Shown here: piece after piece, positions 31,313 to 45,545 of the stretch | How the letters are laid out: each line of letters starts with the position of its first letter | Position numbering within the stretch: the first letter of the stretch is position 1 | NCBI GenBank assembly: GCA_911728435.2 | Contig: OU452207.1 | Coordinates: 12,814,182-12,878,181 of the forward strand | Direction: 5' to 3' | DNA length: 64,000 nt | Source: Apoderus coryli | Lineage: Eukaryota > Arthropoda > Insecta > Coleoptera > Attelabidae | Program-made: the position numbers and the translations under genes | Notes under the pieces: generated by a model | The model's input: the letters and a program-made list of their open reading frames with translations, nothing else | Database searches by the model: none | What the model was told of the DNA's origin: nothing

Positions 31313-31569
31313 TACACATAAGATACTTTCAAATAATGACATATATGTCAAACAAATTCCACAATTTGTCCTTCTGTCAAAACTTAAATGTAAACACTTT
31401 AAAAAATTTCAATAAGAGATTCAATAAGTTATTGTAACAGTTATATAGATTTTAAATATATCTGACCCATTTCTAGAGATACGAATATTTATTAATTAAG
31501 AATTGCTTGTTACATAAAGCAACAAGACTTTAAGTTATGTTGGAAATTTATTTCACACTACCATGCTTC

Positions 31570-31611
31570 CACCAGACGGCCGTTTCGTCGATCCACGACT
31601 CATCAGTGGTG
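31570..31611 (-). ncRNA. type I hammerhead ribozyme, array unit 1
   Basis: Minus-strand order: stem I CACCA, core CTGATGA, stem II GTCG-TGGAT-CGAC, GAAA, short palindromic stem III ACGGCCGT ending in GTC, then stem I partner TGGTG. All conserved core bases are present. The predicted cut follows GTC, between 31575 and 31574. A stem III this short is typical of minimal hammerheads that work best as dimers. Confidence 0.92.
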
Positions 31612-31906
31612 ATCGGAAGGCAGTGTGACCTAAATTTCCAACATTTACAAAGAGCTTATACTAGCACGAGAATTGATTGATAGAGAGATGTTTATGGCGA
31701 CACCTAGCGTGAACAGGCAATATGCCGGGTGAAACACAGTTCACTAACGATGGCCGGACAAGAAGTAACAACTCCATTATATCCTATTGCCAACACTAGA
31801 TGCGCCCGAATCGCCTAGCAGGGAGGCTTTATTTAAGAATTGCTTGTTACATAAAGCAACAAGACTGTAAGTTATGTTGGAAATTTATTTCACACTACCA
31901 TGCTTC

Positions 31907-31948
31907 CACCAGACGGCCGTTTCGTCGATCCACGACTCATCAGTGGTG
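31907..31948 (-). ncRNA. type I hammerhead ribozyme, array unit 2
   Basis: Same core and stems as unit 1, exactly 337 bases away. The cut sites of units 1 and 2 would release a 337-nt monomer from a minus-strand transcript. Confidence 0.92.
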
Positions 31949-32243
31949 ATCGGCAGGCAGTGTGACCTAAATTTCCAACATTTACAAAGAGCTTATACTA
32001 GCACGAGAATTGATTGAGAGAGAGATGTTTATGGCGACACCTAGCGTGAACAGGCAATATGCCGGGTGAAACACAGTTCACTAACGATGGCCGGACAAGA
32101 AGTAACAACTCCATTATATCCTATTGCCAACACTAGATGCGCCCGAATCGCCTAGCAGGGAGGCTTTATTTAAGAATTGCTTGTTACATAAAGCAACAAG
32201 ACTGTAAGTTATGTTGGAAATTTATTTCACACTACCATGCTTC

Positions 32244-32285
32244 CACCAGACGGCCGTTTCGTCGATCCACGACTCATCAGTGGTG
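32244..32285 (-). ncRNA. type I hammerhead ribozyme, array unit 3
   Basis: Identical core and stems to unit 2. It is the first intact ribozyme met by a minus-strand transcript entering from the truncated fourth unit. Confidence 0.92.
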
Positions 32286-32616
32286 ATCGGCAGGCAGTGT
32301 GACCTAAATTTCCAACATTTACAAAGAGCTTATACTAGCACGAGAATTGATTGAGAGAGAGATGTTTATGGCGACACCTAGCGTGAACAGGCAATATGCC
32401 GGGTGACACACAGTTCACTAACGATGGCCGGACAAGAAGTAACAACTCCATTATATCCTATTGCCAACACTAGATGCGCCCGAATCCCCTAGCAGGGAGG
32501 CTTTATTTAAGAATTGCTTGTTACATAAAGCAACAAGACTTTAAGTTATGTTGGAAATTCATTTCACACTACCATGCTTCCACCAGACGGCCGTTTCGTC
32601 GATCCACGACTCATCA

Positions 32617-33522
32617 TCATCCAACCCAACCCAACGTATACTCTATCACAATTTGAGCGTTCCTTTCTTGGATACAAAACTCATCAGAAATGAACACAAC
32701 TCAATCGTTTTAGATTGGTACATTAAACCCACAAATTCAGGCAGATATATTAGCAGAGTGATAGCTGCTCATAGTGAAAAAATGAAAATTAACATAATTC
32801 TAGCGTTAAAAACACGCATTGAAAAAATATGTCATCCATCGTTTTGGGAAAAAAACAAACACCATTTATATAATGTACTAGTCGAGAACTCTTATCCGAA
32901 AAAGTTATTAAGGAAACTAATATTCAATACAAGTCAAACACAACAACCACAACCACATAGGAATACAAACAATACAAGGGTAGAACAAGAAGATACTAAA
33001 CTTTACTTTTCTTTCCCAGCTATTAATAAGATAACACAAAAAATAGCGAGAGTTTTCAAAGACATTCCAACCATAAACATCGCACAAAAATTCAAAAAAA
33101 CTGTAGGCAACCTATACACAAGACTGAAAGACGAAACACCAACACTAAAAAAGTCGAACGTAGTATACAAAATACCTTGCTCAAATTGTGATAGAGTATA
33201 CGTTGGACAGACAGCACGAGTTCTTAAAGACCGACTTACAGCACACAGGAGCGACTGCAGATTAGAAAAACGCTCTTGTGCTTTAGCAGAACACCATATA
33301 GATACAGGACATTTACCAAACTACAGCCTTGTAAAAACATTACACTCGGAAAAGAATCTAACTAAGAGACTATTTCTGGAAATGATAGAAACGAACATGG
33401 ACAACAAAGTACTCAACAAACGGAAGGACGTGGACGATGCCAGCATAATTTACTCTCATTTACTAACATACAGCAATAAAGTCAACAGTAATACACATAA
33501 TTCAACATCGTCATCGGATTAA
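32617..33522 (+). pseudogene. 5'-truncated Penelope-like element (PLE-D): thumb region and GIY-YIG endonuclease
   Basis: After the junction at 32616 the frame reads LSVPFLDTKLIRNEHNSIVL and DWYIKPTNSGRYI, which lies just downstream of the YVDD box in PLE reverse transcriptases. It continues through an Asn/Gln-rich linker to the GIY-YIG endonuclease (VVYKIPCSNCDRVYVGQTAR, LTAHRSDCR, CALAEHHIDTGH) and stops at 33522. The open frame actually starts at 32548 inside the 337-bp repeat, but those 23 codons are not PLE. The catalytic palm is missing. No frameshift is seen in what remains, so the insertion is fairly young. Confidence 0.9.
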
Positions 33523-34266
33523 TCATATATTTTTAACGACTGAACAATAACACCCCATATACCCATTGCATGTCTCTTTTCGATTTTAACGATACATCCT
33601 CAAATACCGAGACAAGGTGACAGGTTGTTCTCGTCACGAAAAACTTAATCTGCAATAGAATTATTCCATCTTCATGTCACAACATCAACAACATCATCGT
33701 AAAAAAGCTCTACTTTGATTTCCTCTAAGTGACAGTTGGAGTTTAAAAAAGTATTGTCTTCACTTTAAAATTGTACAAAGAGAAACTATTATTTCAATTG
33801 TTCTAAAGCAACATAACAAAATTATAGAATGAGCTATTAAAACTTAAAACGTGCTAGATACCTACCTTTTCTACTTGTCAATCTGTATGTCCCTTTTTAC
33901 AACAATCTGTTTTACCTATTTAATACAAAAAAGAAATGAACATTCCCATTCAGAATAGATTCAGGATAGTTTGATGCCTGGTAACTTTATTTATTTGTTA
34001 TGTGTGTGTAAATTTTATATATTTGTTTTTAATTAAATTTTAAATGTTTAAACCAATAACATCACAGAATGTCACTAGCAGTTATTAAGAAAAATAGTGT
34101 TTTAATTGGAAGCTATCACCTTATTGTCATGTACAGTAGTTATATGATAGACTAACTCAACTCGCAGCTACAGGGTAAGTCCAAAAAAATTGTACGCTAT
34201 AGTTTAGTGATTTTGTTTAACTTCAGTAATTGTATGTAAGATAATTGTTTTGTTTTTTCTCCATTA
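33523..34266 (+). other. 3' UTR of PLE-D
   Basis: Non-coding, AT-rich, between the stop codon and the hammerhead-like motif. This is the expected position of a PLE 3' untranslated region. Confidence 0.6.
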
Positions 34267-34309
34267 TAGCCCTGAGGAAGGAAATAAAGATATTCCGAAA
34301 GCTTGGCTA
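34267..34309 (+). ncRNA. degenerate hammerhead motif of PLE-D
   Basis: Stem I TAGCC (34267-34271) and GGCTA (34305-34309). Core CTGAGGA (34272-34278) with one change from CTGATGA. Stem II GGAA (34280-34283) with TTCC (34293-34296). GAAA at 34297-34300 and a short stem III. Arrangement and position match the other PLE hammerheads; the core change probably inactivates it. Confidence 0.7.
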
Positions 34310-34422
34310 GTGAATAAGAGTTTTTCTTAATGATACCTAAGACCTAACACCCCAAGATTTTTCAACATTGTTTTATAACTAGAAGGTCAAGATTACGAAA
34401 ACTTATTTATATATATATATAA

Positions 34423-34605
34423 ACAAACAAAGATATTCAACTAAGTTGACAGAGTATAGTATATCACCGATATACAAAGAAAAATTAAATAAACTAACTT
34501 GTAAGAATCAAAAAAAAAAAAATTGATTCGTACAAGTTAGTTTATTTCATTTTTCTTTATATATCGGTGATATACTATACTCTTAGTTGAATATCTTTGT
34601 TTGTT
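34423..34605. repeat. foldback of SINE 3' sequence around a poly(A) centre
   Basis: The left arm AACAAACAAAGATATTCAAC to TAACTTGTAAGAATC and the right arm GATTCGTACAAGTTAGTTTA to CTTTGTTTGTTT are reverse complements over about 80 bases, with A-rich sequence at the centre (34510-34522). The right-arm sequence occurs again at 34840-34875 behind the tRNA-like head, so the arms are SINE body sequence. Confidence 0.8.
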
Positions 34606-34613
34606 TATTTATA

Positions 34614-34905
34614 TTTATTTGCGATGAGCAAAAGAGAAATAACATTGCATTATGGCAGTGTGTAGTCTATGTTGCCTTTGAATTAAAAGGTCGAGGCGTA
34701 GCACAGCACATAGGAAGCAAGGCATGTACGAATTAAAGAAGTTTCATTCATGTGCCACGATAGTTTAATTGGTTAAAACACCTGACCGGCAATTGGGAGA
34801 TGTTGGTTCAATTCCAGCTTGTGTCACGAGATTTTTTTGATTCGTACAAGTTAGTTTATTTCATTTTTCTTTGTATATATATATATATATATATATATAC
34901 TCTAT
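34614..34905 (+). repeat. SINE with tRNA-like head, ending in (TA)n
   Basis: A tRNA-like cloverleaf lies at 34752-34828: acceptor arms GTGCCAC / GTGTCAC (6 of 7 pairs), D arm GTTT..AAAC, anticodon arm CCTGA..TTGGG, T arm with a B box GGTTCAATTCC. It is followed by TTTTTTTGATTCGTACAAGT and (TA)n at 34878-34902. Upstream sequence (TTGAATTAAAAGGTCGAGGC) resembles that before the second SINE at 45.35 kb. Two extra bases in the acceptor junction and context argue against a functional tRNA gene. Confidence 0.65.
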
Positions 34906-35357: not shown

Positions 35358-36944
35358 TTAATTCAGGAGATTGGAATATATCACACTCAATTGGTTAATG
35401 TCAGATCGGGAATTAATTGTATTATTCGTTTTATTTATATGAACCATCTCCAGAAAAGACCGCTTTGTTAAATTCCTTTCTATATCCAAAATTATTGGTT
35501 CAGCAAAATTGAACGTGTGATCGAGATTCAAACTATGATTAGCGAGGGCACATGATGCTTTGCCTATTCGAATATCACTCTTGTGTTGTACAATACGATG
35601 TTTCAAGCTTTGCGAAGACTGACCAACATAACACCCCTCACAATCAGAACACGAAATCTTATACACTATATTTCTATTTTGTAATGTGGAATTTTTATCT
35701 TTTAGTTTGCTAAATAACGTACGCATGGTTATAGAGTTGTATTTTGCGATCTGTATGTTATTAAATTTATCAAAACGTTGAATAATGTTGTTGGTTAAAC
35801 CCTCAATATACGGTAACTTGTAAAACTTTCTAGGGTTTGAAACGTGATCCTCGGTAGGGCCATCATAAAAATTCGAATTAAAAATAAGCTTACGTAAGAT
35901 ACCACGAGGATATCCATTGTTTATGAAAATATTAAACAGCTTCTCCAAATTTTGGTTAATAAACCTTTCATGAGAAATGGTTGTAATTCTATTCCTCATA
36001 GCTAAAACTGTATTAAATTTTTGATTCATAGGGTGATTAGAGTAAAAATTTATATATCGACCAGATGATGTAGGTTTGTTATACCAATTTAGTATCACCT
36101 TATTATTATCGGATCTTATCACCAAAGTATCCAAAAAGGGGACACTATTGCTATTTTCCAGTTCCATCGTAAATTGTAAATGAGGATTAACTGAATTAAA
36201 AGTATCCAATGTTAGATCAGTTTTATCAGCTGGTACCGAGGTTATAATGTCGTCTACGTATTTAAACATGAATGGAATTCTAAAAGGTAGCAAGTCCAAA
36301 ATTTGTTGTAATAAGGTATCCATAACAATCTGAGCCCAAATGGGACTTATTGGAGAGCCCATTGGCGTCCCGAAAATCTGTTTGTAAAATTCCTCATTAA
36401 AAGTAAAATAACAGTTGTCATTAACAAACTTTGACAGTGTTAAAAAGTTTTGTTTTGATATAGTAGTATGTGTCGATATCTCACTCCATCGAGACTCCAA
36501 TACTTCCAAAATTAAACAAAAAGGAATGTTGGTGAAAAGGGATACTACATCTAAGGAAATTAACACGTAATTATCCGGGAGTTGGTAATTTTCCATTGTA
36601 TTAGTGAATGTAAATGTGTCCGATATATTGGAAGGCGTCGCATCTGATAAAGCTGTTGTTAAGATCTTTGACAGAAAAGAAGATAGATTATATGTAATAC
36701 TGTCAATACAGCTTACGATTGGCCGTAGGGGCACATTTGGTTTGTGAATTTTAGGCATACAATAAAGCCTAGCAGGAGTTGAGTTATAAGTGGTTAGATA
36801 TTTTGCGGTTTCAGAACTGATTTGATTATTAGATTTTAGTGATTTTATTATATTATTTAGTTTTTGTTGTAATGTACACGTAGGGTCTTTTGGTAATTTT
36901 TTGTATGTCTTAGGGTCACTTAAAAGTGATATATATAGTGATAT
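35358..36944 (-). CDS. PLE-A reverse transcriptase/GIY-YIG protein, 5'-truncated, left arm copy
   Basis: Same protein as at 42816-44402 (described there), in inverse orientation. The open frame begins inside the element with no start at its true N-terminus; an internal ATG at 36758 would give 466 aa. Probably not a functional gene because the N-terminal domain is missing, although palm and endonuclease are intact. Confidence 0.85.
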   Translation of the reverse strand: MSLYISLLSDPKTYKKLPKDPTCTLQQKLNNIIKSLKSNNQISSETAKYLTTYNSTPARLYCMPKIHKPNVPLRPIVSCIDSITYNLSSFLSKILTTALSDATPSNISDTFTFTNTMENYQLPDNYVLISLDVVSLFTNIPFCLILEVLESRWSEISTHTTISKQNFLTLSKFVNDNCYFTFNEEFYKQIFGTPMGSPISPIWAQIVMDTLLQQILDLLPFRIPFMFKYVDDIITSVPADKTDLTLDTFNSVNPHLQFTMELENSNSVPFLDTLVIRSDNNKVILNWYNKPTSSGRYINFYSNHPMNQKFNTVLAMRNRITTISHERFINQNLEKLFNIFINNGYPRGILRKLIFNSNFYDGPTEDHVSNPRKFYKLPYIEGLTNNIIQRFDKFNNIQIAKYNSITMRTLFSKLKDKNSTLQNRNIVYKISCSDCEGCYVGQSSQSLKHRIVQHKSDIRIGKASCALANHSLNLDHTFNFAEPIILDIERNLTKRSFLEMVHINKTNNTINSRSDINQLSVIYSNLLN

Positions 36945-37042
36945 AAATAACTATCAAACGGATCTGTTTGATAGTTATTTATATAGATTGGAATTATCAT
37001 ATAATAAACAATTTAAAACAACAAAACAAACACATATAAATA

Positions 37043-37928: not shown

Positions 37929-38530
37929 TTATTTATCTGTGATAGAAAGAGACTTGAAGAATTTAGTAGATGTAAAGTCAGTCTGTTCATTAAGGCAAAT
38001 GATTGAAGGTGTGTTATTTTTAATAGTTATCTCCATAATTTCAAGGGTGTTTAACAACGTGCCTTTGTTACATATGTGTAAAAGTGTAACATCTCTTGTG
38101 GGATCGAAGTTATGATTAAAATTTATAATGTGGTTTGCGAAGGATGATTTGCTATTTATGTTGGTATGGTTCTGTGATTTTGCTTTAGTGATGATTTTGT
38201 GATGTTCGTCAATTCTAGTTTTGAGTGCTCTACCTGACTGACCAACATACTCAGCCGCACAATTAGGGTCTCCACATTTAAGAGAATACACTCCGGATTT
38301 TGAGGACCAGTGAGATTTGTCTTTGCTATTGTTAAGAGAGAGATTGATAGTGTTGCTTGTACGAAAGCATATGTTTATGTTATACTGGTCGTAAATCTTT
38401 TTTAGTTGTATACAAAATGGGTGTATATATGTAATTGGGTAGAATTTAGGTAATGTTCTAGTAGTGGTGTCCATTAGATTTTTATGTATAAATTTATTTA
38501 TGTTTTTGTAGTAAATTCTATTAATTGTTG
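37929..38530 (-). pseudogene. PLE-B protein, C-terminal 200 residues (inverted fragment)
   Basis: Residues TTINRIYYKNINKF to the stop, identical to the end of the PLE-B protein at 41230-41831, including the GIY-YIG core (GVYSLKCGDPNC, EYVGQSGRALKTRIDEH). It has no reverse transcriptase; the fragment begins at the inner border of the inverted duplication, where it meets the PLE-B 5' pLTR. Confidence 0.95.
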
Positions 38531-38531
38531 T

Positions 38532-39232
38532 TATCGGCATTGTGTTTGTTTATTGAATGTATAACCATTGTCAAAGACATCTATGAATAAATTTGTAGAA
38601 CTAATCGTTTACTATACCACAAAAGATAACTGTAATAACAAATATAAACTTGTGCTTCCTGTATAGATTGTAGTTTTCTAGATAACATATACATATTGTT
38701 AATGTTGAAGTCTGCAAAATAAGACAGCGCTCAAAACAACAAATTCATATAGTTATTTATTTAATTATACCTCCACCCACTAGAGGGATCAACATACATA
38801 CCACCAATTTTGAATATTATTATTATTAACAATCGAAATATCAACCATTTTGTCTATCAGGTACTGCGTAGAAAGACAGACCACAACTTTGTTAAAAAAT
38901 TCTATTCTGCAATGATCACAAAAAAGAAAAACCAGATATAACATATGTTAACATGATTTTATTTTAATAACATTAACAAAAATTTTTTCCTCAAAATGGT
39001 GAGTTATTTAATTACAACAACGTAACTACATTATAACAAAAAAGGTCCTTTTTCAGACTTCAACACATTACTCTCAACCTAGTCATATGTAATATTTGCA
39101 AATACAATTTTCTCTCGAAATTTACCACTGATGATGAAGCTAGTGAGCTTCGAAACATGTTTGGATGTAACACATTGAGTGTAACGTATTAAATTGATTT
39201 TGTGGAGTCAGACTTTTATTTCCTACTACAAT
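38532..39232 (+). repeat. PLE-B 5' pseudo-LTR
   Basis: Starts TATCGGCATTGTGTTTG and ends TTTCCTACTACAAT; homology with the 3' copy stops on both sides at these points. The hammerhead lies in its last quarter, about 80 bases before the ORF. In PLEs the pLTR provides promoter and ribozyme. Confidence 0.9.
39122..39170 (+). ncRNA. hammerhead ribozyme, PLE-B 5' pLTR
   Basis: CTGATGA (39128-39134), stem II GAAGCT-AGTG-AGCTTC (39136-39151), GAAA (39152-39155), a very short stem III around ACATGT, and stem I CCA/TGG with outer TTA/TAA pairs. All core positions are conserved. Confidence 0.88.
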
Positions 39233-42775: not shown

Positions 42776-42819
42776 ATATAAATAACTATCAAACAGATCC
42801 GTTTGATAGTTATTTATAT
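42776..42819. repeat. near-perfect palindrome at the PLE-A 5' junction
   Basis: AATAACTATCAAAC (42781) pairs with GTTTGATAGTTATT (42801), with AGATCC at the centre. It lies just upstream of the first PLE-A codons; an inverted copy is at 36941-36984. Confidence 0.85.
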
Positions 42820-44402
42820 CACTATATATATCACTTTTAAGTGACCCTAAGACATACAAAAAATTACCAAAAGACCCTACGTGTACATTACAACAAAAAC
42901 TAAATAATATAATAAAATCACTAAAATCTAATAATCAAATCAGTTCTGAAACCGCAAAATATCTAACCACTTATAACTCAACTCCTGCTAGGCTTTATTG
43001 TATGCCTAAAATTCACAAACCAAATGTGCCCCTACGGCCAATCGTAAGCTGTATTGACAGTATTACATATAATCTATCTTCTTTTCTGTCAAAGATCTTA
43101 ACAACAGCTTTATCAGATGCGACGCCTTCCAATATATCGGACACATTTACATTCACTAATACAATGGAAAATTACCAACTCCCGGATAATTACGTGTTAA
43201 TTTCCTTAGATGTAGTATCCCTTTTCACCAACATTCCTTTTTGTTTAATTTTGGAAGTATTGGAGTCTCGATGGAGTGAGATATCGACACATACTACTAT
43301 ATCAAAACAAAACTTTTTAACACTGTCAAAGTTTGTTAATGACAACTGTTATTTTACTTTTAATGAGGAATTTTACAAACAGATTTTCGGGACGCCAATG
43401 GGCTCTCCAATAAGTCCCATTTGGGCTCAGATTGTTATGGATACCTTATTACAACAAATTTTGGACTTGCTACCTTTTAGAATTCCATTCATGTTTAAAT
43501 ACGTAGACGACATTATAACCTCGGTACCAGCTGATAAAACTGATCTAACATTGGATACTTTTAATTCAGTTAATCCTCATTTACAATTTACGATGGAACT
43601 GGAAAATAGCAATAGTGTCCCCTTTTTGGATACTTTGGTGATAAGATCCGATAATAATAAGGTGATACTAAATTGGTATAACAAACCTACATCATCTGGT
43701 CGATATATAAATTTTTACTCTAATCACCCTATGAATCAAAAATTTAATACAGTTTTAGCTATGAGGAATAGAATTACAACCATTTCTCATGAAAGGTTTA
43801 TTAACCAAAATTTGGAGAAGCTGTTTAATATTTTCATAAACAATGGATATCCTCGTGGTATCTTACGTAAGCTTATTTTTAATTCGAATTTTTATGATGG
43901 CCCTACCGAGGATCACGTTTCAAACCCTAGAAAGTTTTACAAGTTACCGTATATTGAGGGTTTAACCAACAACATTATTCAACGTTTTGATAAATTTAAT
44001 AACATACAGATCGCAAAATACAACTCTATAACCATGCGTACGTTATTTAGCAAACTAAAAGATAAAAATTCCACATTACAAAATAGAAATATAGTGTATA
44101 AGATTTCGTGTTCTGATTGTGAGGGGTGTTATGTTGGTCAGTCTTCGCAAAGCTTGAAACATCGTATTGTACAACACAAGAGTGATATTCGAATAGGCAA
44201 AGCATCATGTGCCCTCGCTAATCATAGTTTGAATCTCGATCACACGTTCAATTTTGCTGAACCAATAATTTTGGATATAGAAAGGAATTTAACAAAGCGG
44301 TCTTTTCTGGAGATGGTTCATATAAATAAAACGAATAATACAATTAATTCCCGATCTGACATTAACCAATTGAGTGTGATATATTCCAATCTCCTGAATT
44401 AA
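42816..44402 (+). CDS. PLE-A reverse transcriptase/GIY-YIG protein, 5'-truncated, right arm copy
   Basis: Open for 528 codons but without a native N-terminus: it enters at LLSDPKTYKKLPKDPT, a conserved block about 60 residues ahead of the first palm motif. An internal ATG at 43002 (MPKIHKPNVPLRPIVS) would give 466 aa. Palm: LISLDVVSLFTNIP, GTPMGSPISPIWAQIVMDTL, FKYVDDIITSVP (catalytic Asp pair near codon 229). Thumb side: SVPFLDTLVIR, NWYNKPTSSGRYI. GIY-YIG: IVYKISCSDCEGCYVGQSSQ then LKHRIVQHKSDIR (near codons 426-455). Closest to PLE-C at the window start. No stop or frameshift, and identical to the left-arm copy. Loss of the N-terminus suggests a dead insertion that is young. Confidence 0.9.
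   Translation: MSLYISLLSDPKTYKKLPKDPTCTLQQKLNNIIKSLKSNNQISSETAKYLTTYNSTPARLYCMPKIHKPNVPLRPIVSCIDSITYNLSSFLSKILTTALSDATPSNISDTFTFTNTMENYQLPDNYVLISLDVVSLFTNIPFCLILEVLESRWSEISTHTTISKQNFLTLSKFVNDNCYFTFNEEFYKQIFGTPMGSPISPIWAQIVMDTLLQQILDLLPFRIPFMFKYVDDIITSVPADKTDLTLDTFNSVNPHLQFTMELENSNSVPFLDTLVIRSDNNKVILNWYNKPTSSGRYINFYSNHPMNQKFNTVLAMRNRITTISHERFINQNLEKLFNIFINNGYPRGILRKLIFNSNFYDGPTEDHVSNPRKFYKLPYIEGLTNNIIQRFDKFNNIQIAKYNSITMRTLFSKLKDKNSTLQNRNIVYKISCSDCEGCYVGQSSQSLKHRIVQHKSDIRIGKASCALANHSLNLDHTFNFAEPIILDIERNLTKRSFLEMVHINKTNNTINSRSDINQLSVIYSNLLN

Positions 44403-44832: not shown

Positions 44833-44871
<39 letters not shown>
44833..44871. repeat. (TA)n microsatellite at the outer end of the inverted duplication
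   Basis: About 18 TA units between the PLE-A 3' end and the SINE foldback. A shorter (TA)n at 34878-34902 lies near the opposite outer border. Confidence 0.95.
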
Positions 44872-44872
<1 letters not shown>

Positions 44873-45270
44873 CTAAGGGAAAATATTCACTTAAAGTGAC
44901 TCAACTAGTAGTTGAATAAATTGTATATATATTATATAGAAAAGCCAAATGAAGAAAACGAACGTTTGTAAGTTGGAAAAAACATTCGCTTCAGGTGGGA
45001 ATCGAACCCACGTCTCGTTTGTGAGTTGGAGGGGACATTGGTATAATAGTATCGCGTTTATGCACTACTATCACCAGTGCTTCGGTAGCTCAATGGTGTA
45101 GAGCAAATGCCCGGAAAGCGTGAGACGTGGGTTCGATTCCCACCTGAAGCGAATGTTTTTTCCAACTTACAAACGTTCGTTTTCTTCATTTGGCTTTTCT
45201 ATATGATATATATAGAATTTATTCAACTACTAGTTGATGAGTCACTTTAAGTGAATATTTTCCCTTAGCT
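44871..45270. repeat. head-to-head SINE foldback with tRNA-like sequence in both arms
   Basis: The left arm 44871-45018 and right arm 45121-45270 are reverse complements: outer AAGCTAAGGGAAAATATTCA, then TCAACTAGTAGTTGAAT, AAGCCAAATGAAGAAAACGA, and the T-arm GGGAATCGAACCCACGTCTC. The right arm belongs to a full tRNA-like head (45079-45150); the left carries only its T-arm side. Looks like a SINE joined to an inverted truncated copy of itself. Confidence 0.85.
45079..45150 (+). repeat. tRNA-like SINE head, copy 1 (full 72-nt cloverleaf)
   Basis: Acceptor GCTTCGG / CTGAAGC (7 pairs, one G-T), D arm GCTC/GAGC, anticodon-arm remnant with loop CCGGAAA, T arm GTGGG/CCCAC with B box GGTTCGATTCC. 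Position 33 is C instead of the invariant T, and an identical copy lies 368 bases away within repeated flanks, so I read it as a SINE promoter head. Confidence 0.7.
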
Positions 45271-45545
45271 TATTTAATACGATGTGCAGGACATGCAATA
45301 GAAGAAACAATGCGACGTGGTCTGTGTCTTTGATGCCTTCGAACTGAAGGTCGAGACAATAGCAGAACCACAAAACAGCATAGCGTTTGTGAGTTGGAGG
45401 GGACATTGGTATAATAGTATCGCGTTTATGCACTACTATCACCAGTGCTTCGGTAGCTCAATGGTGTAGAGCAAATGCCCGGAAAGCGTGAGACGTGGGT
45501 TCGATTCCCACCTGAAGCGAATATATATAATTCTTAAGATTAAGA
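45271..45545 (+). repeat. second SINE copy including tRNA-like head (45447-45518)
   Basis: Body text CTTCGAACTGAAGGTCGAGA (about 45340) is followed by the same 135-base block found at 45018-45152 (GTTTGTGAGTTGGAGGGGAC to CCACCTGAAGCGAAT), including the full cloverleaf. A (TA)n at 45551-45580 follows. Confidence 0.7.

Follow-up and report, generated by a model that had tools for sequence, protein, structure and literature searches.

Most mapped insertions of the retrozyme described here consist of two inverted tandem arms, and the outer ends of these arms fall into two fixed classes, which we call S1 and S2, almost always with one of each per two-armed insertion. Retrozymes themselves are known, and what is new is the anatomy of their insertions. 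The array that we found in the window (the whole stretch of 64,000 nucleotides analysed) is probably one arm of such a non-autonomous insertion, produced when a Penelope-type machinery used the two 3′ ends of a staggered break to copy a circular RNA.

Results

The hammerhead array of the window

The array, referred to as RZ-A, lies on the minus strand at 31492..32616, as delimited by TRF and unit mapping. TRF gives a period of 337, 3.3 copies and 98% matches over this interval, in agreement with the tandem 337-bp repeat proposed in the original prediction. It comprises three full units (31576-31912, 31913-32249 and 32250-32586) with partial units at both ends. The three complete type I hammerheads announced for the minus strand were recovered as full-length matches to RF00163 at 31569..31612, 31906..31949 and 32243..32286, with 32.3 bits each (E-value 8.5e-6 in a 1.35-kb scan and 4e-4 in the 64-kb scan). 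A default Rfam scan of the array reports no hammerhead because this score lies under the gathering score of 34; the matches appear only under an E-value setting. A fourth copy (32586..32616, minus strand) is cut short at the inner (5′) border of the array, without the 5′ part of stem I, and matches model positions 8-39 of 45 with 18.5 bits. The points originally given for cleavage, 31575, 31912 and 32249, each mark the C of a GTC, and predicted cleavage would occur 3′ of that C. At its outer end the arm consists of unit positions 1-84 (31492..31575, minus strand), an S1-class end abutting host DNA. The window copy has this one arm only, the second arm being missing, and no target-site duplication was found at it.

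The unit is predicted to fold into a rod of -107.5 kcal/mol (z -4.55, with 0/100 shuffles equally stable), in line with the rod-like extension of stem I noted originally, and a high capacity for self-pairing also characterizes metazoan retrozymes. With a GC content of 0.436 and a longest ATG-stop frame on the repeated unit of 49 aa, it resembles these elements in being non-coding, apparently free of LTRs and below 50% GC, and it differs from autonomous Penelope elements, which code for a reverse transcriptase (RT) and a GIY-YIG endonuclease. The type I hammerhead, although its score is under the Rfam gathering value, is carried in tandem units within the typical range of ~170-400 bp. Together with duplications of more than 4 bp and many small dispersed arrays in the genome, these sequence-level features support the retrozyme-like reading of the array.

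Two retrozyme families with a common fold

Across the 428-Mb genome an exact hammerhead core pattern has 2252 occurrences, of which 1108 are forward and 1144 reverse, versus 0 for a reversed-pattern control. The genome search with the window unit, suggested in the original prediction, gave 218 matches from the best 40 of 1228 candidates, and the RZ-A arrays are small and dispersed over many contigs. A genome search with RF00163, in which 73 of 52198 candidates were scored, returned 4 matches, 2 of them above cut-off, and the window copies were not among them. The RZ-A unit, 337 nt in the window, measures 335-341 nt among 87 full units, and with a mean of 4.36 differences between loci the family appears young.

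The cores represent at least two retrozyme families with a common predicted fold. The second family, RZ-B, has a unit of 333 nt and a hammerhead equal to that of RZ-A at 41/41 positions, while outside it one unit of each family, when compared, are 65% identical around S1, 77% identical around S2 and 49% identical over the remaining sequence. The hammerhead is thus the most conserved part between them. RNAalifold, applied to 6 RZ-A and 4 RZ-B units, predicts a common rod in which S1 is preceded by a hairpin and S2 by a stem. Double changes that preserve pairing were found in 6/52 pairs, and this covariation is modest because only a small number of closely similar RZ-B units entered the comparison. 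Four further loci (L048, L049, L050 and L078) hold diverged retrozyme copies in which a hammerhead of ~41 nt is found nearly unchanged on different bodies. A search of viral contigs for the hammerhead 32-mer gave no exact match, and the TTAGG pattern was encountered in one place only, which is too little to be informative.

Two arms, two end classes and a duplication

We mapped 51 arrays: 38 loci nearest to the unit (clusters from the best 40 of the 1228 candidates), the window copy, and 12 minus/plus pairs (5 RZ-A, 7 RZ-B) chosen because they were opposed. Two arms are present in 41/51 arrays, or in 29/39 without the 12 chosen pairs, and in 41/41 two-armed loci the minus array is on the left and the plus array on the right, with the 5′ ends inward. 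The same order prevails among the first 100 core places listed, where 14 neighbours lie on opposite strands within 1.5 kb, all minus then plus.

Outer ends are located ~83 nt (S1) and ~237 nt (S2) after the cleavage site in RZ-A, and at 76 and 231 in RZ-B. In 37 two-armed loci each outer end could be assigned to a class, and 36 of these have one S1 and one S2 end (binomial p 2.8e-10); in the remaining 4 one end is unclassified. These 36/37 loci match what is seen in Penelope mobilisation, where each strand has its own fixed internal start site. The sole S1/S1 locus, L017, has host flanks that are mutually inverted and may represent a secondary palindrome or an assembly fold-back. One-armed loci follow the same classes, with 9/10 ending at S1 (6) or S2 (3).

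An exact direct border repeat of at least 8 bp flanks 35/36 S1/S2 loci (median 12), whereas swapped flanks, used as a control, yield such a repeat in 3.6% of 701 pairs (median 5). The exception is L068 with 5 bp. Five of the 41 loci (L017, L018, L069, L073 and L078) were left out of the duplication count, and L068 is also out of the arm-length set. Insertion sites are AT-rich (70% in the 200-bp flanks and 83% in the 10 bp adjoining the left end), and most RZ-A duplications are not (TA)n. Duplications longer than 4 bp at small dispersed arrays are likewise a feature of metazoan retrozymes. Two RZ-A insertions of opposite orientation (L021 and L023) occupy the same position within a repeated sequence (TTTTAGGTTAT), a coincidence that may reflect a target preference.

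In the predicted circular fold, S1 and S2 of both families face each other across one open multiloop. Ranked among all windows for being least paired, S2 falls into the lowest 0.6% in both families and S1 into the lowest 5.6% and 10.2%. The two sites are ~154 nt apart in the RZ-A sequence and would meet only in the folded rod.

The template: circle or multimer

The mean number of differences per unit is 0.36 between the arms of one locus (55 pairs) and 0.69 within one arm (58), compared with the 4.36 between loci (3628). Of the 19 loci that hold at least two full units, 12 are matched by another locus as closely as by their own units; the family is so uniform that the common origin of both arms depends on few variants. 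Four loci (L010, L030, L038 and L040) each have a private variant that is present in both arms, in every unit covered, and L016 has two private variants in its right arm. Non-majority variants in 40 loci comprise 49 that are fixed in all covered units and 86 that are not, 68 of the latter occurring in one unit only; part of the 86 is due to a misaligned L024 fragment and to a second element in L021.

In the 29 RZ-A loci, 45/58 arms are longer than one unit, the longest having 5.7 units, and the lengths of paired arms are uncorrelated (rho 0.09). The arms overlap at their inner ends by 1-5 bp in 15/29 loci and by zero or a negative value in 12/29, and the other two loci have overlaps of 30 and 38. 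Round the unit, the positions of the 58 inner ends are compatible with a uniform distribution (KS p 0.25), and 4 of them lie within 5 nt of the cleavage site where 1.7 would be expected. Since the arms run over several laps and the inner ends are spread, the template would have to run on through the hammerhead joint, as would a circle or an uncut multimer.

The locus L032 (1638-3948) deserves a separate mention. Its RZ-A array has two plain units followed by two with a 353-nt insert (352/353 identical between copies), and unit positions 276-294 are present on both sides of the insert. A single circle alone would not give such a mixed array, which calls for either a template switch or a template that was itself mixed, and the insert suggests that additional sequence can travel with a retrozyme.

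That the same two-strand copying used an uncut linear multimeric transcript as its template appears unlikely. This template would account equally well for multi-unit arms and for inner ends that do not peak at the cleavage site, and the mixture of plain and insert-bearing units in L032 is in its favour; hammerhead mutations in PAc moreover left insertion in vitro unaffected (PMC11167929). However, an old multimeric source would tend to transmit unit-to-unit differences, whereas the variants are mostly either fixed (49) or confined to a single unit (68/86), and private ones fill both arms in 4 loci. Circles are also reported for other animal retrozymes in the accessible text of PMC7229834. We consider the circular RNA to be the more probable template.

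Penelope elements and their relation to the retrozyme

The inner border of the window array is followed by a filler and a short inverted piece of the Penelope-like element PLE-A (32617..32655), recognised by a 20-nt exact reverse-complement match to PLE-A at 33181; other PLE-A copies align from 32656. A 5′-truncated PLE-A then extends over 32656..34421 on the plus strand, with DNA copies of 97-98%, and terminates at an S2-class end against (TA)n. It occupies the place expected for the second arm of the RZ-A insertion, but may belong to a different insertion. Elsewhere PLE-A copies have open frames of 830 aa, and their outer ends are at query position 1761 or 1797-1826. Among the matches listed, 7/9 PLE-A minus/plus pairs have one of each end class as judged by eye, while the pairs at C7:2180214 and C18:6690728 have the same class twice; C7:23259170, which ends at 1441, was left out of this count. 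The C20 copy of PLE-A combines S1 with a tail piece. One of each end class is also present in the Penelope family F56 and, by eye, in the PLE-B pair of the window. The comparison of both arms left out F55 and F59, whose stretches are too short, and F60 has one clear end.

The Penelope families A, B, F56, F60 and probably F55 end in (TA)n, so that, among families with visible ends, RZ-A mostly does not share the target preference of the resident Penelope elements. No driver of RZ-A could be named among these families and, given the (TA)n mismatch, the driver may be another family, or the choice of target may depend on more than the enzyme. PLE-A was rejected as the driver on this target mismatch. 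We also considered a single-event chimera of RZ-A and PLE-A at the window, as suggested by the inverted PLE-A piece at the border, and regard it as doubtful: PLE-A ends sit in (TA)n, the flank on the left is no such tract, and no common duplication was found.

At the sequence level the unit appears unrelated to the nearby pLTRs, as originally stated, since blastn of the Penelope stretches of the window gave no match in 54 loci that include the retrozyme arrays. The insertion anatomy nevertheless links the retrozyme to Penelope elements. No chimeric arms turned up elsewhere when the Penelope pieces of the window were compared with the 54 loci by blastn and tblastn; the Penelope protein matches were confined to flanking DNA, in L011 and L046, and L072 contains a match to a tRNA element. 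A hammerhead of PLE-A itself was searched for in L052, L053, L054, L057 and L058, with no RF00163 match up to E 5. The motif CTGAGGA...CGAAA near 34272-34300 is, by eye, what we take to resemble a minimal Penelope hammerhead.

The window also contains an inverted Penelope pair at 35358-36950 (minus) and 42810-44402 (plus) with identical frames of 530 aa and, by eye, an extra tail of ~33 nt at the left end. Between its two members lie a Penelope frame of 877 aa and, at 37929-38549, part of that frame again in inverted orientation. Among 120 listed protein relatives of PLE-B, the organism is named for 8, and all 8 belong to genera that we take to be beetles. This is in keeping with the proposal that the retrozyme is an insect member, and a beetle is the likely host, kinship between mobile elements being weak evidence of it.

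Two further tandem elements of the window carry a tRNA. The first (34409-34878, and also L053:3300-4768 and L052:872-1612) is a ~325 bp element with a tRNA-Ala (GGC) instead of a hammerhead match; it has inverted arms, and the outer ends of the window copy are at unit positions ~186 and ~125, in (TA)n. It is possibly a tRNA-bearing Penelope satellite. The second, at 44870-45545, has tRNA-Ser GGA at 45078 and 45446, i.e. 368 bp apart, an inverted left part and a position between TA tracts. By eye, it has a short stretch in common with the tRNA-Ala element.

Other routes to an inverted array

A LINE-type machinery with twin priming is an improbable substitute for the Penelope enzyme. In the case of L1, twin priming gives inverted truncated copies flanked by duplications, according to the consulted part of PMC2837659, LINEs are named beside PLEs as candidates (PMC7229834, accessible text), and the preference of the Penelope families here for (TA)n points in the same direction. 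On the other hand, a pair of fixed internal start sites, each serving one strand, typifies Penelope both here and in vitro, and the printed ends have no poly(A) or simple-repeat tail.

Self-priming or fold-back of the cDNA has very little probability as the source of the inverted arms. It was proposed for the inverted repeats of Penelope in Adineta vaga, where the available text describes head-to-head pLTRs with an optional tail on one of them and duplications of 8-10 bp (PMC3846280), and the S1/S1 locus L017 with its palindromic host flanks would suit it. Equal ends would be expected, however, while they differ in 36/37 loci, and the arm lengths do not correlate (rho 0.09). The retrozyme anatomy fits the chemistry of PAc and argues against self-priming as a general route. 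An origin as a satellite array, or as a DNA transposon or MITE with inverted repeats in which the hammerhead is incidental, is equally remote: tandem units, inverted arms and duplications fit superficially, but the arrays are small and scattered over many contigs, the termini differ (S1 versus S2), the inner breakpoints vary and the hammerhead is what RZ-A and RZ-B have best conserved (41/41 positions).

Discussion

We infer the following scheme for the circle, the enzyme, its dimeric state and the order of steps. By analogy with other animal retrozymes, tandem copies would be transcribed and then cut by their hammerheads, and a host ligase would close the 337-nt monomer into a circle. A Penelope-type RT/GIY-YIG endonuclease, probably as a dimer, would bind the open multiloop of the rod where S1 faces S2, and the same enzyme would cut AT-rich DNA with a stagger of ~12 bp. 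Each 3′ overhang could then prime reverse transcription at a site of its own, S1 for one overhang and S2 for the other, with several laps being possible. Joining of the two cDNAs head to head, at variable points and with little or no homology, would leave inverted tandem arrays between duplications.

More tentatively, and with somewhat less than an even chance of being correct in all its parts, the retrozyme circle may be a two-ended integration substrate: a single Penelope-type dimer would sit in the middle of the rod at S1/S2, its two subunits would share one break and one circle, each extending a different strand, and the two reverse transcriptions would yield the inverted tandem arrays. 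The tRNA-bearing tandem elements of the window might use the same anatomy, in which case retrozymes would be one branch of a wider group of Penelope satellites.

We found no earlier description of two-armed retrozyme insertions or of paired start sites in a literature search that was thin on subscription papers and excluded supplements. Circular templates and PLE or LINE helpers are proposed in the retrozyme papers, as far as their accessible text goes (PMC7229834, PMC7761336), and the S1/S2 rule makes the circular RNA template and the partnership with Penelope testable. According to the part of a 2020 review available to us, retrozyme repeats have no conserved motif from which to deduce the autonomous partner (PMC7761336); the S1/S2 rule is a signature of the kind that could point to it. 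Two-sided copying also provides a simple reason for inverted tandem arrays, and a scan for opposed hammerhead arrays with two fixed end classes can be applied to any genome.

Among known systems, the pDo500 satellite of Dolichopoda resembles RZ-A in being an insect tandem repeat whose units each hold a conserved hammerhead, but the consulted text describes it as satellite DNA and mentions no insertions, arms or duplications (PMC2837043). Plant LTR retrozymes are likewise non-autonomous, carry a hammerhead and propagate through circular RNAs (PMC4918200, accessible part); they differ from RZ-A by their LTRs, type III hammerheads and 4-bp duplications, as summarized in the available text of PMC7229834. 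The closest counterparts are the metazoan non-LTR retrozymes of Cervera and de la Pena (2020), for which the same text gives a type I hammerhead carried by tandem units of 170-400 bp, low GC, a rod-like RNA, no LTRs, duplications of more than 4 bp, many copies and co-occurrence with Penelope, all of which apply to RZ-A. Their circular RNA and cleavage have been demonstrated, whereas those of RZ-A are predicted, and the accessible text holds no description of two inverted arms with fixed end classes, one of each (PMC7229834).

With Penelope elements the retrozyme has in common the extension of both strands, two internal starts, AT-rich targets, hammerheads, an optional tail on one side and head-to-head copies, with duplications of 8-10 bp in the Penelope case (PMC11167929; PMC3846280, consulted text). 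Unlike RZ-A, they are autonomous, protein-coding and equipped with minimal hammerheads, and their start sites are adjacent in sequence while S1 and S2 are ~154 nt apart. The PAc protein of Anolis cuts and extends both strands from two adjacent internal start sites, and a dimer is predicted for it (PMC11167929). PAc starts 111-118 nt into the ORF and the hammerhead cut lies 26 nt in, which places the starts ~85-92 nt downstream of the cut, compared with ~83 nt for S1 of RZ-A.
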